Made by a program: the position numbers and the translations under genes. Source: Spiroplasma endosymbiont of Crioceris asparagi (GTDB lineage Bacteria; Bacillota_I; Bacilli_A; Mycoplasmatales; Mycoplasmataceae). From it: DNA of 64,000 nucleotides. This document shows positions 35,146-43,333 of the stretch, piece by piece. Below the pieces are notes generated by a model. It was not told where the DNA came from. It ran no database searches and saw only the letters and a list, made by a program, of their open reading frames with translations. The DNA is taken from positions 186,001-250,000 of the forward strand of contig NZ_OZ026475.1 of NCBI RefSeq assembly GCF_964020035.1, written 5' to 3'. Within the stretch, counting starts at the first letter, position 1. Every line of letters begins with the position of its first letter.

Positions 35146-36129
35146 ATGTGAATTAAAGAAATTAATAAAGAATTAAAAGAAGTTTCATTTGTAACTAGAA
35201 TTGGTAAGTCAATTGCTGCAACTTCAAATCAAAAAACATATCTAATACTTAATTTCGTCGACAATACGGGACGTATTGATGCAAGGTTGTGAGATAGTTC
35301 AAAAGAAGATGAAGAAGCCCTTAAATCTAACAATTATGTAAATGTTACTGCCGAAGTTAATGTCTTTAAAGGTACAATTCAATTAAAAGTAAAAAGCTAT
35401 ACTTTAATAACACCTCAAAGAATTGTTGAAATGGGTTATAAAGAAGCAGATTTTTTAATTACTTCTGCAATTGATGTTGAAAAAGAATATAAAAATTTAA
35501 TTGAAGAATTAAAAACTTTTAAAAATAAAACTTATTCAAAAATAACTTTACATCTATTAGAAAAGCATAAAGAAAAATTTTTAAAATACCCTGGAGGAAT
35601 GTTTGTTCATCACAATGTAGTTGAAGGATTATTTTGACATTCAATTTCTTTATACAAATTAGCAAAACAAATTAAACCAGTTTACTCATATGCAAAAAAT
35701 ATTGATTGAGAATTAGTTTGTTGTGGAACTATTTTACATGACCTTGGTAAAATCTTTGAAATTAAAGATAAACAAGGAAGCGACTATACAAATTATGGTA
35801 AATTAATTGGACACATTTCAATTGGTAATCAACTAATTTTTGCAACAGCACAAGAACTAGGATTAATTTCTTTAGAGACTAATATTGATGATCAAAAAAA
35901 TCAAGATGTTCTTAAAATGCAACATATGATTATTGCCTCACATGGTAAAAAAGAATATGGTTCACCAATTGAACCACGAATTATCGAAGCGGTCATTCTT
36001 TCAACATTAGATGAAATGGATGCAAGAATTTATAAAATTAATGACGAATTAGAAAGAGCTGAAATTGATAAATATACAGCAAAAGTTATTACAGAAAATG
36101 GAACAGCATATTTTAAACATTTTAAATAA
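35146..36129 (+). CDS. yhaM: 3'-5' exoribonuclease YhaM
   Basis: 327-residue nuclease that trims single-stranded RNA. An N-terminal OB fold (about 12-85) carries TYLILNFVDNTGRIDARLWD, and a C-terminal HD domain has HHNVVEGLFWHS, ILHDLGKI (HD metal site), GHISIG and HGKKEYGSP. It begins three bases after the cutC stop. TGA codons (second codon, 35289, 35636, 35706) are Trp. Together with RNase J and RNase III it makes a third RNA-processing enzyme in this window. Confidence 0.94.
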
Positions 36130-36163
36130 AAGTTTATAATTATTGGAAAGAAAGGGAGTTTAG

Positions 36164-38839
36164 ATGTTAAAGAATAAGAAAAAAAATGCTAAAAAACAAC
36201 ATTGATTAAAAGATGAAACAATTTTTTCTTGTGCAAAACAATCAAAACAATCATTACTACAAGACTTTAATTTAAAATTTTTTGGTGATGCTTCTAATCG
36301 AAAGACCCGAATTTCAAAATATGGATTAAATACAACAAAAATTTCTAAATTTAATCATATTTTATATTTTTTAAAAGAAACTATTGAACCATTTAATATC
36401 TTGTTGTTTGTAATGATTTTTATTGATTTAGGAATATATTTTTTTAAAGCCCCTGAGCACGGTCAAACATCAAATGTTGACAACTTAGTTTCTGCAATAA
36501 TTTCATTTATTCTTTTATCTTTAAATATGTTTGTGGCCCAATTTCTAGGTTATAAAAGTTATAAAGTTTCTAAAGAATTATATGATGTTATTAACAATAG
36601 GTATAATGTTGTAAATTATCAAATTGATGATTTATCAAAAGTAGATATTCCACATTTACAAAGTAAAGTGTTTTCTATTGCAAGAAATTCCTTAACTATT
36701 GGAGATGTCGTTTTATTACAAAAAGGAGACATTGTTCCTAGTGATATGAGAGTTCTATGAGCTTCTAATTTATCAGTTAATGATAATCATATTAGGGGAA
36801 GTAAAGTAAAAGTATTTAAAACAGCTGAATATATGCCAGCAAAATATATTTATGATTTACAAAATATTTTATTATCACAATCACAAATTATCTCTGGAAC
36901 TGCATTGGCAATGGTTACAGGTGTGGGTGAAAATAATTCTTCATTTAAATTATTGTCACAAGAAACATTAGAAAATCAATCTTTCTATAAAAAAGGATTA
37001 AAAAGATTGATGATTGGAATTATGCTATCAATCTTAGTTGTCTTTCCGGTGGCTTGTGTGGCACATATTTTATGAAATCCAAATTCTAGCTTATTAGAAT
37101 CAGCGCTTTTTGCAATTAGTATTATCATCTCATTAACTCCAGAAGCGTTACCAGCGCTTGTTGCATTTAATCTTTTATATGGAGCATCACAAATTAAAAA
37201 TAAAAAAGTAATTATTAAAAACTTTGATTCTATTCAAGATATGGGTGCTGTTAATTTACTAATTACTAATAAGTCAGGTCCGGTTGTTAAACAAAGATTT
37301 ATTTTGTATAACACAATAAACTACAATGAAAAAAAATCAAATTATGTTTATAACCTTGCTTTCATGAATGCCTATTTCCAAAATTCACTAAATTATAAAT
37401 ATGAAAAAGTTATTTTAGATCATGAAAAAAATCCCGAAAGCATTGTTAAATATTGAGAACTAGTTTCTACAAAAGAAATTGATCTTTATAGAAAAATTGG
37501 GACTATTATAGTCAAAAATAAACTAACAGGTAAAGCTTTGCAAATAACAAAGGGTACATTTAAAAATGTTCATAATATTACTAAATTTGTAAATGATAAT
37601 GGCACAATCGTTCCGTTTACTCCAGAAATGAAGGCAAAGCTTTATGAATATGTTAATAACCAAATAGATAAAGGTTTTAAATCAATTCTTGTTTTAACTA
37701 AAGAAATTAAAAATATTAATGATCCAATTGTTGAAGATAATTTAGTTTTTGAAGGAATCATGCTATTTCAAAACCTTGTACAAGAAGATGTTAAAGAATC
37801 TTTAACAAGTTTACTTAAATATAATATTGATTTTAAAATGTTTTCATCAGATGATGAAATGACCACAATGTGGGCTGCGAAAGAAGCTGGAGTTCCAAAT
37901 ATCAACTTTTCTAAAACATTAGAAATGGGATATCAAAATGATAAAAAAGAAATTATTGAAGAAGTAAACGTTTTTGCAAATTTATCTCCAAGACAAAAAG
38001 CATTGTTAATTAATGAATATAAAAAACAGGGAAATGTTGTAGCATATTTGGCCAATGGCCGAAATGATACTGTAGCAGTTAAAAGGGCAGATGTGGGTAT
38101 TGTTCCCGAAACTGCCACACCAATATCTAAAATATTTGCTGACATTATTGTTAAAGAAACAAAAATTTCTAATATTGATGAAGCGTTTGTAATTGGAAGA
38201 AAAACATTTATTAATTCAATTAAATATATACAATTAACATTTGCTATTAACCTAGGATTGTTATTATCACTTTTTGTGACTAATCTTTTATTTGATTTTG
38301 TTCCTTTAAATTCAAATGAATTATTATTACAATCACTGTTAATTGATATCTTAAATTTTGCCTTTATCTATGATGTTGTTGATAAACAAACTTTAAAGAA
38401 CCCAGTAAAATGAAACCTAAAAAGAATTGCAATTTTTTCACTCTGAAACTGTTTATTGCCAATGTTTGTGTCGATATCGAACATTGCAATTGTAGCTTAT
38501 GGGTTTGGTTGAAAAGATGAAGTAAACGCGAAAGAAAAAATTCAAACAGTTTATTTTATTGAAAGTTTTTTAACTAGATTATTACTATTATTTATTTATC
38601 GAACTGAAAAATTATCATTAATTAAATCACGACCAAGTGCAAAATATGCACTAATAGTTTTAATGGTTGCCTTAGCAATGATTGCATTAACCTACACTCC
38701 TTGAATTGACACCACATTTGATATGAGCACACCAGACTCATGATGATGGGGAATGTTAGCGGGAATAATATTTGTGACGTGAGCACTTGGAGAATCAATC
38801 AAAAAACTATATTTATATATATTTAAAGAATGATTTTAA
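36164..38839 (+). CDS. P-type ATPase-like protein lacking the catalytic motifs
   Basis: 891-residue protein with the layout of the magnesium-transporting MgtA group: N-terminal cytoplasmic region, paired spans near 80-97 and 108-128, A domain, spans near 285-330, TPEALPALV in M4, P and N domains, and a C-terminal block of five or six spans. Alignment by eye with the MgtA pattern is continuous, yet each catalytic motif is changed. TGES is RGSK (211-214); the phosphorylated DKTGTLT is NKSGPVV (N369); TGDN is SSDD (561-564); GDGxNDA is ANGRNDT (630-636), which keeps ND. Without the aspartate it cannot form the phosphoenzyme. Over 20 Trp codons, mainly TGA, stay in frame with no stop or shift, so the gene looks maintained. 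GGGAGTT precedes ATG 36164. Substrate unknown. Confidence 0.85.
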
Positions 38840-38845
38840 AAAACA

Positions 38846-38872
38846 AAAACACCAACCATGTTGGTGTTTTTT
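38846..38872. terminator. Bidirectional terminator
   Basis: AAAACACCAAC (38846-38856) pairs with GTTGGTGTTTT (38860-38870). The hairpin lies between the convergent P-type ATPase-like gene and the HIT gene, with T runs in both directions. Confidence 0.9.
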
Positions 38873-39302
38873 AATTAATAATTTTATTTTTAATTTCTTC
38901 AAGATCTAAATTAGTTGGAGCATCATTTATAATGAAACCAAAGCCTTTAGATTTCTCATATTTAGGCACAACGTGCATATGATAATGAAAGACAACCTGA
39001 CTAGCAATTGCTTTTTCATTTACAACATAATTAAAGCCTTTAATGTCTTTTAATTTTGTTTTTAATAATATTGCAACTTCTTTAGCTAATTTACTAACTT
39101 CAAATAAGTATTGATCGTCACATGAAGAATAATCATCATAATGACTTTTAGGAATCACTAAAGTGTGTCCCACAGAATTAGGATATATATCTAAGAATGC
39201 ATAGGCATAGTCATTTTCTTTTATTAAAAAAGAAGGCACTTCTTTTTTAATAATTTTGCAAAATAAACAATCAGCTTTTAAATTACATGTCTTCATCATC
39301 AT
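38871..39302 (-). CDS. hinT: HIT-family nucleotide-binding protein (HinT-like)
   Basis: Histidine-triad hydrolase of purine nucleoside phosphoramidates. The core begins at CLFCKIIKKEVPSF and carries NSVGHTLVIPKSHY and the HYHMHVVPKY triad (HxHxH). 141-143 residues depending on which of three successive ATG codons (39302, 39299, 39296) is used; they lie in a GATGATGATG run that also encodes the acidic C-terminus of the upstream lipoprotein, so the genes overlap by 12-20 bases and are probably translationally coupled. The two N-terminal cysteines (CNLKADCLFC) before the core are unusual. In Mycoplasma hominis HinT binds the lipoproteins encoded with it. Confidence 0.93.
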   Translation of the reverse strand: MMMKTCNLKADCLFCKIIKKEVPSFLIKENDYAYAFLDIYPNSVGHTLVIPKSHYDDYSSCDDQYLFEVSKLAKEVAILLKTKLKDIKGFNYVVNEKAIASQVVFHYHMHVVPKYEKSKGFGFIINDAPTNLDLEEIKNKIIN

Positions 39303-41031
39303 CACGTTTATGAATATATGTCCCGATTTTATCTCATAATCCTGAATAATAAATATCTTTTTCATTTAAGTATTTACTATAAATTTGTGTTTTTGCATTT
39401 GACTGAATTGAAGCATTTGAAGCTAACATAGAAATCATTTGATTGATTAGTGATGTTTTTTTATCAGTTGTTAAATCGGTTACATCTTTTGAATGTAGTT
39501 TAGAGTTAACCGCATTATTTCAAATTGTTAGTAAAGGATTTGGATTATTTTGATCACTACTTTTCCCGGTTGCTAAGTTAATTGCAATTTTTTTATCAGC
39601 AGCATCTCTAATACCAAATTCATTTTCATTATTTTTATTTGGTTCAAGAATGTTTGCTAAATAAATTGGTAGAACAATAACTAAATTACATTTTGTATCA
39701 TCTTTTTCGTCATCAAATCCAAATTGGTTGGCATTATTATAAATTATTCCAGCACCTTTTTTATTGTATGCAGATACTTGTGATTTATATTTGTCGCTTA
39801 ATGTATTTTCTCCATAAGTAATTGAATCTTTTTCAAATGTATAACCTTGGAAACCACTAATTCCAAAATAAGGATCATATGCTGATTTATCATTAATTTC
39901 TTTAATGTCTGAAGCTTTTTTTAAAGCATCTACAATATTGGAAATATTTTTATCATTTTTTAGTGTGTAATCTGAAAGACCAGTATCTGAAATTTTATTA
40001 AAAATTTCATTTGCATTTAAAGCAGTTCTAACATCTGAATCTTTAGTTTTGTCATATTGGAATGTTCATACCATTTTAAAGTTTGTTTTTCATGCATCAG
40101 AAACATTATTATCATTTCATTCTTGTGAAGTGCTAAATAGTGGACTTAGTGAGTTTAAATATAAATTGCCATCAGCCACACGATAAAATTGGAAAATATT
40201 TGACATAACCATTTTTGTTTCATTCATATCATTAATTAATTTATTTTCAAAATAATCTTGAAATCTTAATGAAACGGCAGTTGTAGAAGAAATGCTAAGT
40301 TTATTTCCTTTAGCATCAGTTATTCAAAAGTTATGTTTACCTTTATCATATTCTTGAGTTAAATCTTTAACAGATGGAAGATGGTCACCACTTTTTGAAG
40401 ATTTATCTAAATTTTCAGAAAAAATCTCTCAAGGTTTTTGTTCATCTCCAAATAATACTTTGCTTCCCTCAGGAATTGCTTCTGCATTTTTTGTTTCTTT
40501 TCCATCATTATCATAAACAGTAATGGAACCAGCAGGAATCTCAGTTGTAACATTAAAGTTGTATAGAACACCATCAGATTGATGATAATCTAGGGGTTCA
40601 TCATTTTGAATAGATTTTGTATATTCATTAAATAGTTTATTTTCGGCAACATTTCGAGCTACTGAATCATAACTTTTTTTGTATTTTTCAATTCCATCAT
40701 TGTTATCATCATAGTTACTTATATGAGAATCGGGTGTAGATAAGTTTTGTAATAATGTTCTTGTTTTGTCAAAACTATTTTTTAATCCTAAAAGATCATT
40801 AATAATTTGAACAGCTTTATCAAGAAGGTCACTATCTTTATAATATTGACCTAAATCAAGTGCATTTGAATAATCTGAATTCCCTGAAATACCAGCAATA
40901 ATTTTTTTAATTAAATCTCTATTAATTGAAGGTGTAGAAAATCTTTCAACTTTACTTTTACATGAAACCAATACTGCTGAAGAGGTTGCAACTAAAGAAA
41001 TTGAACCTAATATACCAATTAATTTTTTCAT
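39283..41031 (-). CDS. Lipoprotein of the HIT operon (P60-like position)
   Basis: 582-residue surface lipoprotein. The signal peptide MKKLIGILGSISLVATSSA is followed by the lipobox LVSC, so Cys29-region acylation and cell-surface exposure are expected. The rest is hydrophilic, rich in Asn, Asp, Lys and Ser, and ends RDDDEDM. GGAGG at 41041-41045 selects ATG 41031 rather than the in-frame ATG 41046. The frame is free of TAA/TAG down to 39283 when TGA is Trp. It sits between a larger lipoprotein gene and a HIT gene, the same arrangement as the hitABL operon of Mycoplasma hominis that encodes membrane proteins P60 and P80 and HinT. Homology to P60 is inferred from context only. Confidence 0.85.
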
Positions 41032-41032
41032 A

Positions 41033-43333
41033 TTAGTTACCTCCATTTAAGTTATTATTAAAGTAATAATTTACTGTTAAATAACTTAAATTTGTTTTTG
41101 GTGTGGGTGTTGTAGTAAATCATCATTTGTTTTCAAGTTCTTTTAAAATAACCGCATATTCAAAATTATTTGTAAATAATTTTTTTGGATATTCTTTTTT
41201 TGTTTGTTTTTTAATAGATTCTTGTCAAGTTTTTAAGTTGTTTCTAAATGTAGATACTGGGTAAACACTTTTTCTAATTGTTAGTGTTTTAAGTGAATTA
41301 GAAAATATTTTTTTAATTTTTTTTACATATACTCCACTATCTTTATCATTTTCATCACCAAATTGAACAAACTCACCAACAAATTCATCAATACTTTCTG
41401 ATTTCTTTTTAACAGTAGAAATTAAATTTTTAAAGTAATCAAAATATCCTAATGCTCAAGTATTTGAAGTTTCACCAACTGTATTAATTGAAGCAGATCA
41501 GTCTTTAACTTCTGACATTATGTCATAAGAAGTTATACTTCCAGTTTTGTCTTTAATTAATGAGTTGTTTGTAAGGTAGTGTAAATAGGGGTTTGTAATT
41601 GATTGATTCATTGTTTTGTAAATTATATTGTTGTCATCTGTAACATTTTGAATTGCTTCAACTTTTTTATTATCATCTAGACTATAAAATTGATTAAATC
41701 TTTTTAATTGTTCTAAAGTGTTTGTTTCAATAGTGTGATCTTTATCATATGATTTAACAAAACCTTCTTCTTTTGGAGTGTTGCTTTCCATTCAATGTTT
41801 GTAACCATCAATAGAAACAATGTGTAAACCATCACTTTCTACAAATACTAATTTACCAGGTGCTAACTCACCATACATTCCAGTTGTTGTTGCACCATCT
41901 GCAAGTGATTTACTTGCGTTTCGATTAATTTTTGCAAGTGCAGTTTCTAGTTTGAAATCTTTTGCATCATCAGTCATGTTAACAAAATCCTTTTTATCAC
42001 CTAGATAGTCATAAACTGAATTTTTTAACATTTGTGTGAAATCAGAAGTGCTTGAACCTAAAGTTAAAAGTTTGCTGTATTTTTTTGCACTAATTTTTGC
42101 CCCATATTTATTAGTTAAACCAGAACTTGTAAATATTTGTGATCATTTTTTATCAATAGTTGAATCATATCCACCATCAGCCGCTAAACTATTTTGTTTA
42201 GCAAATAAATCTTTCATTAATTGATTAATTTTATCAGCTTCTTGTTCGGCACCACTTTTTGTGGTGAAGCTATCTTTACTAATTCCATTTTCAAAAGCAT
42301 AACCATCAGCAAAACCAAAAATCAATTCACTAACAGCTACAGGAGCATTTGTATTATAGTATTGGTCTAAGAAATATCTTTGTGAGTTAGATAAAAATCC
42401 TCCACGAGTGCTTAAATCACTAGTACTTAATTTTGTTGTATCAAAAGGAACATTGTCGGCAACTATTTTTGTATCATCAATTTTATTTAGTTTATCTTTT
42501 ACATCACTTTTAATATTTTTTTGTTCATCAAAATACTCAGAATCATATGTATTTTTTCAACTTTTTGTGTCCTGAGATGTTGCATTAATTATTTGCATAA
42601 TTCATGGTTTTTTATCACTATCATTTATATTAGCTTCAAAATTTCCGCTTGCAATTCATCCTTTAATTGCATTTAAGTGTTCAATTACAGTTTGTTTAGT
42701 TACTCAAGAAACTCCAAGTTGATCTGTACCTAATAAAACATCTTTTAATATTGATGAAACATTGTTGTCACCATCTATCATTAAAGTATATTTGTATTTT
42801 TTCTCTAATAAACTTACATCTGCATCATCTGCATCATCTTGATATTGTGGAAATTTACCAACAAGATAATTTTTTCAATTTTTAGCTCAATGTTTACTAT
42901 CGCTTTTCTTTTTATCATCTTTTTCTTCTTCAATTTTTTGCTCTACTTGTTTTTGTAGTGTAGCAAAACGATCTTTTAGGATGCTAATAAGATCTGTAAA
43001 GTAATAATTATCTGATCCTTCTTCAATTTCTTTTGATTTACCATCTTTATCGACACCCTTAAATTTATCAACGTTTGCTAAAAATGATAAATTCATTAGT
43101 GACAATAAGTCTTTATCGATTTGTTTACGAATTGTTGGATCATTATAAATTTTTTCTAAAAGTTCTAAAGAAGTTAGTTGAGTTTTCCCGTCAATATTAC
43201 TGATGAATTTAGCAATTATTGAATTACCATTATCATCTTTGTGATAATCTGTTTTATGTTTACAAGAAACTAAAACTAATCCGCTTGTTGCGGACAAAGT
43301 TACTACTCCTAATAAGGAAATAAGTTTTTTCAA
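41033..43333 (-). CDS. Large lipoprotein of the HIT operon (P80-like position), TTG start
   Basis: 766-residue lipoprotein. Signal peptide MKKLISLLGVVTLSATSG with lipobox LVSC. Long hydrophilic body with coiled-coil-like stretches around residues 115-150 (EKIEEEKDDKKKSD type) and no further membrane spans. The start is TTG at 43333, supported by AAAGGAG nine bases upstream; no ATG lies before the signal peptide. Its stop overlaps the ribosome-binding region of the next lipoprotein gene (two bases before that ATG), so the operon is tightly coupled. More than ten TGA Trp codons are scattered through it. Confidence 0.85.

Follow-up and report, generated by a model that had tools for sequence, protein, structure and literature searches.

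The window, i.e., the 64,000-nucleotide stretch of DNA analysed here, comes from a wall-less bacterium of the Spiroplasma group and carries on its forward strand a gene for a P-type ATPase-like protein (Table 1). Read under code 4, the frame is uninterrupted and contains 12 TGA-Trp codons, where the first-pass annotation had counted over 20. At the base composition of the window, 891 open codons would arise by chance with P ~1e-26 and relatives with a part in the degeneration occur in two other genera, so the frame is not a product of chance. An RNA element was sought near the gene and none was found. Further along, at 39283-43333 on the reverse strand, two tandem genes for large lipoproteins lie beside the HIT gene, in an order that is the same in two other genomes (G051 and G005).

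Table 1. Features at the P-type ATPase-like locus; positions are those of the window and residue numbers in brackets are those of the protein unless E. coli MgtA (EcMgtA) is named.
Feature	Position	Strand	Remark
yhaM-like gene	35146..36129	+	left border of inserted gene
promoter-like TTTAAA-17-TATAAT	36112-36140	+	such sites occur at chance frequency
good ribosome-binding site AAAGGGAG	within 36112..36163	+	precedes ATG
pseudo-P-type ATPase gene	36164..38839	+	891 aa, P3B/MgtA fold, PSI1 clade
RGSK (211-214) for TGES	36794..36805	+	A-domain loop; RG common to all three PSI1 members
M4 E327 (EcMgtA E331)	37142..37144	+	ion-pathway residue kept
NKSGP (369-373) for DKTGT	37268..37282	+	P domain; N369 at the position of the phosphorylated Asp
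I439 (EcMgtA F445, adenine stacker), L441 (EcMgtA F447)	37478..37486	+	N domain
SSDD (561-564) for TGDN	37844..37855	+	
ANGRND (630-635) for GDGxND	38051..38068	+	first Asp of the motif replaced by Asn
M5 N696 (EcMgtA N706), M6 D728 (EcMgtA D738)	38249..38347	+	both kept; M6 N734 replaced by S724
12-pair inverted repeat with T runs	38845..38871		predicted two-way terminator between the pseudo-ATPase gene and HIT, which converge on it
HIT-family protein gene	38871..39365	-	right border of inserted gene

The predicted protein was matched by TIGR01524 over residues 17-890 (E 2.4e-114, with 383 bits against an equivalog threshold of 610.75) and by the MgtA structure 9ejn over residues 26-871 (E 9e-87), both of which agree with the first-pass claim that the frame is MgtA-like throughout. 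Pfam hits were confined to the A domain and the membrane domain at the C-terminus, the catalytic hydrolase domain going unreported. An AlphaFold2 model built from nine input sequences had a mean pLDDT of 77.8 and its closest PDB structure was 9me9, MgtA in an E1-like state (TM 0.80), which predicts an intact fold. Judged from its full-length homology and its fold, the protein is a P3B (MgtA) P-type ATPase by descent. While it shares with MgtA/MgtB full-length homology, the A/P/N order, the membrane architecture and the PEALP of M4 (the alignment confirmed that the whole TPEALP is kept), it is without DKTGT, TGES, TGDN, GDGxND, the adenine pocket and Mg2+ site I.

A related P-type ATPase is present in all of the 60 family genomes examined. 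In trees the canonical MgtA proteins stood apart from a second, mostly active paralogue group, here called MgtA-II, and the window protein lay inside the latter in a clade (PSI1; support 100/100, bootstrap 100) with proteins from G006, a Spiroplasma MAG, and G005, the three members representing three genera. The first-pass annotation had proposed a search for relatives with NKSGP at this position, and in these two the motif is indeed altered: the G006 protein reads NKTGS (with RGKM, SGD and GDGVND at the other motifs) and the G005 protein DVKGV (with RGKD, SND and GDGRSD). The nearest active relatives are MgtA-II paralogues, at 31-34% identity to the window protein; however, they nearly always keep the TGES Glu, DKTGT and GDGxND. 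When GTDB genome contigs were scanned, the window protein brought up no relatives, and the G006 protein brought up its own genome alone (JALAGN010000002.1). An intact P-type ATPase elsewhere in the genome, which the first-pass annotation had also suggested looking for, was found: a canonical MgtA (L049 7902-10580; TGES/DKTGT/GDGIND), in addition to one more DKTGT ATPase (L050).

An exception among the MgtA-II paralogues is L019 (L048 6338-9043, forward strand), from G051; apart from the window's own genome, G051 alone represented that genus in the analysis. In L019, TGES has become SGKQ and the M6 Asp is Val, with DKTGT and GDGKND intact, and on these residues it could possibly be phosphorylated yet be unable to dephosphorylate. 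L019 and two of the PSI1 members have the same E-to-K change at the TGES Glu, a placement of L019 as sister to PSI1 was not rejected (p 0.41), and L019 may represent an intermediate stage toward PSI1. A second degenerate clade, PSI2, consists of six proteins from six genomes (L047, L046, L075, L076, L078, L079) belonging to three genera other than those of PSI1. Its motifs include, e.g., DYEDI and GRDLN; the P-loop Asp is kept and KTGT, TGD and GDGxND are lost. When 198 genomes of the order were searched, PSI2 stood sharply apart, at 1322-1406 bits against at most 506 for everything else. That PSI1 and PSI2 go back to one origin was neither established nor rejected (AU p 0.06), and dead P3B-type pumps may have arisen one or more times in the Spiroplasma group.

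Catalytic residues were compared in an alignment of 77 P-type ATPases of the family, with EcMgtA as residue ruler. The first-pass claim that all four catalytic motifs are replaced was borne out, each of the replacements in Table 1 being in place, although it understated the extent of the degeneration: adenine-binding residues are gone as well. The Glu of TGES (EcMgtA E215) is S213 in the window protein and S/K/K across the three PSI1 members. In the nucleotide pocket, tested at EcMgtA N415, F445 and K468, Y411 replaces the adenine contact N415 and I439 replaces F445, and only the Lys is retained, as K463; at N415/F445/F447 the three PSI1 members have Y,I,L / Y,L,S / F,V,L. The residues that mark a functional P-type ATPase, i.e., the DKTGT Asp, the TGES Glu, those of GDGxND/TGD and the adenine contacts of the nucleotide pocket, are missing from the window protein. 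It nonetheless keeps 58 of the 81 columns that are nearly invariant in 64 active relatives (A domain 9/10, M5-M10 16/19, P(1) 5/9, P(2) 12/20), and its losses cluster in the P and N domains. EcMgtA D373N is inactive (PMC4758953, PMC10925321). From these residues, the window protein is almost certainly incapable of the phosphoenzyme cycle and has probably lost normal ATP binding.

Motif loss alone does not exclude all transport, because Mg2+ movement is reported for TMEM94/ERMA, an Mg2+ transporter of the human ER whose motifs are strongly changed. This protein is the nearest parallel, likened by its published features: on a P-type fold it has DKQGI for DKTGT, GSSANL for GDGxND and no TGES, its nucleotide pocket is inaccessible in the solved structures, and ATP-linked Mg2+ uptake in liposomes has been reported (PMC13322241). 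The window protein could accordingly be conceived as an unusual ATP-driven transporter of this type, with energy coupled through different residues. However, TMEM94/ERMA is eukaryotic and keeps its catalytic Asp, Asp427, which is reported to be essential (D427N is dead; PMC13322241), whereas the window protein has Asn at this site, as in the dead EcMgtA mutant (PMC4758953), and is also without the Asp of GDG and the residues that contact adenine, and we consider ATP-driven transport very unlikely. Another reading is that of an ATP/Mg sensor, which would bind nucleotide without hydrolysis and signal through its conformation, the Asp-to-Asn change mimicking trapped mutants. The window protein does retain the Lys of KGA (K463) as well as K612, but the N415, F445 and F447 contacts are replaced in all PSI1 members and KGA is gone from the other two, which makes a sensor of this kind distinctly unlikely.

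Along the ion pathway, the M4 Glu, M5 Asn and M6 Asp are present in all three PSI1 members, and the M6 Asp is common to the MgtA-II group except L019. Mg2+ site I of MgtA (PMC10925321, PMC13174805), formed by S705, N709, S776 and D780, reads I, L, P and S in the window protein; the site is also missing throughout the MgtA-II group, active members included. At the position of EcMgtA Q814, MgtA-II members (e.g., L008, L012, L016, L017, L055) have an M8 His. This His is invariant in 20/20 non-PSI members of the group and is Arg/Arg/Lys in PSI1, which by the alignment sets a permanent positive charge beside the ion path. The ion carried by MgtA-II pumps may, on these residues, be one other than Mg2+. 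With its catalytic cycle dead, the window protein might still offer a passive pathway, letting a cation through as a facilitator or gated channel; E327, N696 and D728 would suit this role, and the membrane half is more conserved than the catalytic half. However, Mg2+ site I is absent, the M8 charge would discourage the passage of cations, and in PSI2 the ion residues are also altered (M4 Glu to Asp, M5 Asn lost, M6 Asp mostly lost), so a channel seems unlikely.

Divergence by codon position follows the order 3>1>2 in PSI1 pairs. Pairwise codon models rejected omega=1 for the window gene against an active relative (dlnL 110), against G006 and G005 (dlnL 120 and 118) and for G006 against G005 (dlnL 196). 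Since synonymous sites are saturated, omega itself is unmeasurable, and the estimates from the pairs and the branch model (0.000-0.04) are not measurements; solely the rejection of omega=1 counts. In neutral simulations 2-3 stops appeared at 2% nucleotide change and about 20 or more at 20%, while the window frame has 0. Several losses, i.e., RG, S561 and the adenine contacts, are common to the three PSI1 genera, which indicates that degeneration began before these genera split and leaves time enough for a neutral gene to have broken. The first-pass argument for selection on the frame therefore stands as far as the rejection of omega=1 and the lack of stops go, and does not extend to a value of omega.

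A decaying pseudogene that has yet to acquire a stop would agree with the long terminal branch of the window gene (1.07 changes per site) and with the fact that mollicute genomes shed genes. Against this are the rejection of omega=1 by 110-196 lnL units, the codon-position pattern, the lack of any of the ~20 stops expected, the losses held in common by several genera, and the retention of a good ribosome-binding site and a terminator. We regard decay as highly improbable, though a very recent relaxation confined to the tip of the window gene (under ~2% change) may have occurred. The gene is very probably maintained by selection and, with its motifs dead, the protein probably has a job other than pumping.

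The gene sits exactly between yhaM and HIT. In both G051 and G005 the yhaM|HIT site is empty: yhaM and a terminator are followed directly by HIT, then by a pair of lipoprotein genes and, at some distance, by sufS. The window gene is therefore probably a single-gene insertion; the alternative is that the site was emptied by deletion in both genomes. If catalytic loss came first, as the shared motifs suggest, a dead pump was relocated and then kept, and what was inserted here was probably an already dead pump. Synteny is not conserved across PSI1, the three genes being at three different sites. In G005 the PSI1 gene (L054 8760-11441) adjoins recO and era, a third unrelated site, and this location points to mobility of the gene or to repeated relocation.

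Pseudoenzyme paralogues, e.g., pseudokinases, combine a dead catalytic site and a retained fold with a live paralogue in the same cell. The window protein resembles them in each of these respects: lost catalytic residues on a kept fold, purifying selection and an active paralogue in the genome are found together. The reading that we prefer, at about even chances, is that it is a pseudo-pump, i.e., a membrane protein of MgtA fold with no aspartyl-phosphate cycle, kept for a non-catalytic job. Such a protein, complete in fold, would neither form nor hydrolyse aspartyl-phosphate; it would bind another membrane protein as a regulatory or structural partner, and could report ion occupancy or the state of the membrane by its conformation, without ATP turnover. 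That it acts as a partner or regulator, and not as a channel or otherwise, we hold to be slightly short of an even bet. The candidate partners would be two, a YhgE/Pip-type protein and the cell's own canonical MgtA.

For the first of these, gene order is suggestive. In G006 (PSI1) the gene for a MarR-type regulator is followed by one for a membrane protein of YhgE/Pip type (matched by TIGR03062 at E 1e-22, short of the curated cut-off of the model) and then by the PSI gene, the same trio is found in G059 (PSI2), and in G001 and G002 (both PSI2) the PSI2 gene is directly downstream of Pip. YhgE/Pip genes directly upstream of PSI genes were seen at L053 10-2558, L140 3807-6651, L143 9645-12389 and L145 3506-6352, and in G055, G054 and G056 the same Pip gene precedes ribF-nfo, with no PSI gene there. 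None of 14 other YhgE/Pip loci inspected had an adjacent P3B ATPase. A YhgE/Pip gene is present in 9/9 PSI genomes against 40/60 overall (p 0.018 with kinship ignored). In the window's genome it is present (L189 6884-8761; G000:C1 about 400.9-402.8 kb) and unlinked to the pseudo-ATPase gene; the PSI gene is likewise away from YhgE/Pip in the case of the G005 PSI1 gene and of three of the six PSI2 genes. We take linkage and co-occurrence as a lead to the partner. A CNNM-domain protein is a partner of TMEM94, and no CNNM domain was detected in the window's genome (G000). As regards MgtA, EcMgtA was reported as a homodimer formed via the N and P domains (PMC10925321), a dimer that another group did not see (PMC13174805), and in our alignment the residues of the dimer interface are unconserved even in active relatives. 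It is conceivable, if rather doubtful, that P3B pumps became a dead-pump family in the Spiroplasma group, with modules of MarR, Pip and pseudo-pump in which the fold would act as a non-enzymatic subunit or sensor of a complex in the membrane.

Among the open-licence papers searched, none was found to describe a family of pseudo-P-type ATPases in bacteria, and none joined 'P-type ATPase' with 'pseudoenzyme' or 'pseudo-ATPase'. The guanylyl cyclase-alpha of apicomplexans is comparable in that a P-type ATPase module is tied to signalling, but that module is of the P4 class, is fused to the cyclase and has its catalytic Asp, which is apparently required (PMC7858053).

Pseudoenzymes have been studied a great deal in kinases and proteases and hardly at all in P-type ATPases. 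Here, several stages coexist in one bacterial clade, ranging from active pumps through L019, in which the TGES Glu is lost and DKTGT kept, to DVKGV, NKTGS and the loss of all motifs. The PSI pseudo-pumps also bear on the debate over the mechanism of TMEM94/ERMA. Furthermore, small genomes should delete useless genes of 2.7 kb, and the use of the P-type fold without phosphorylation becomes directly testable.
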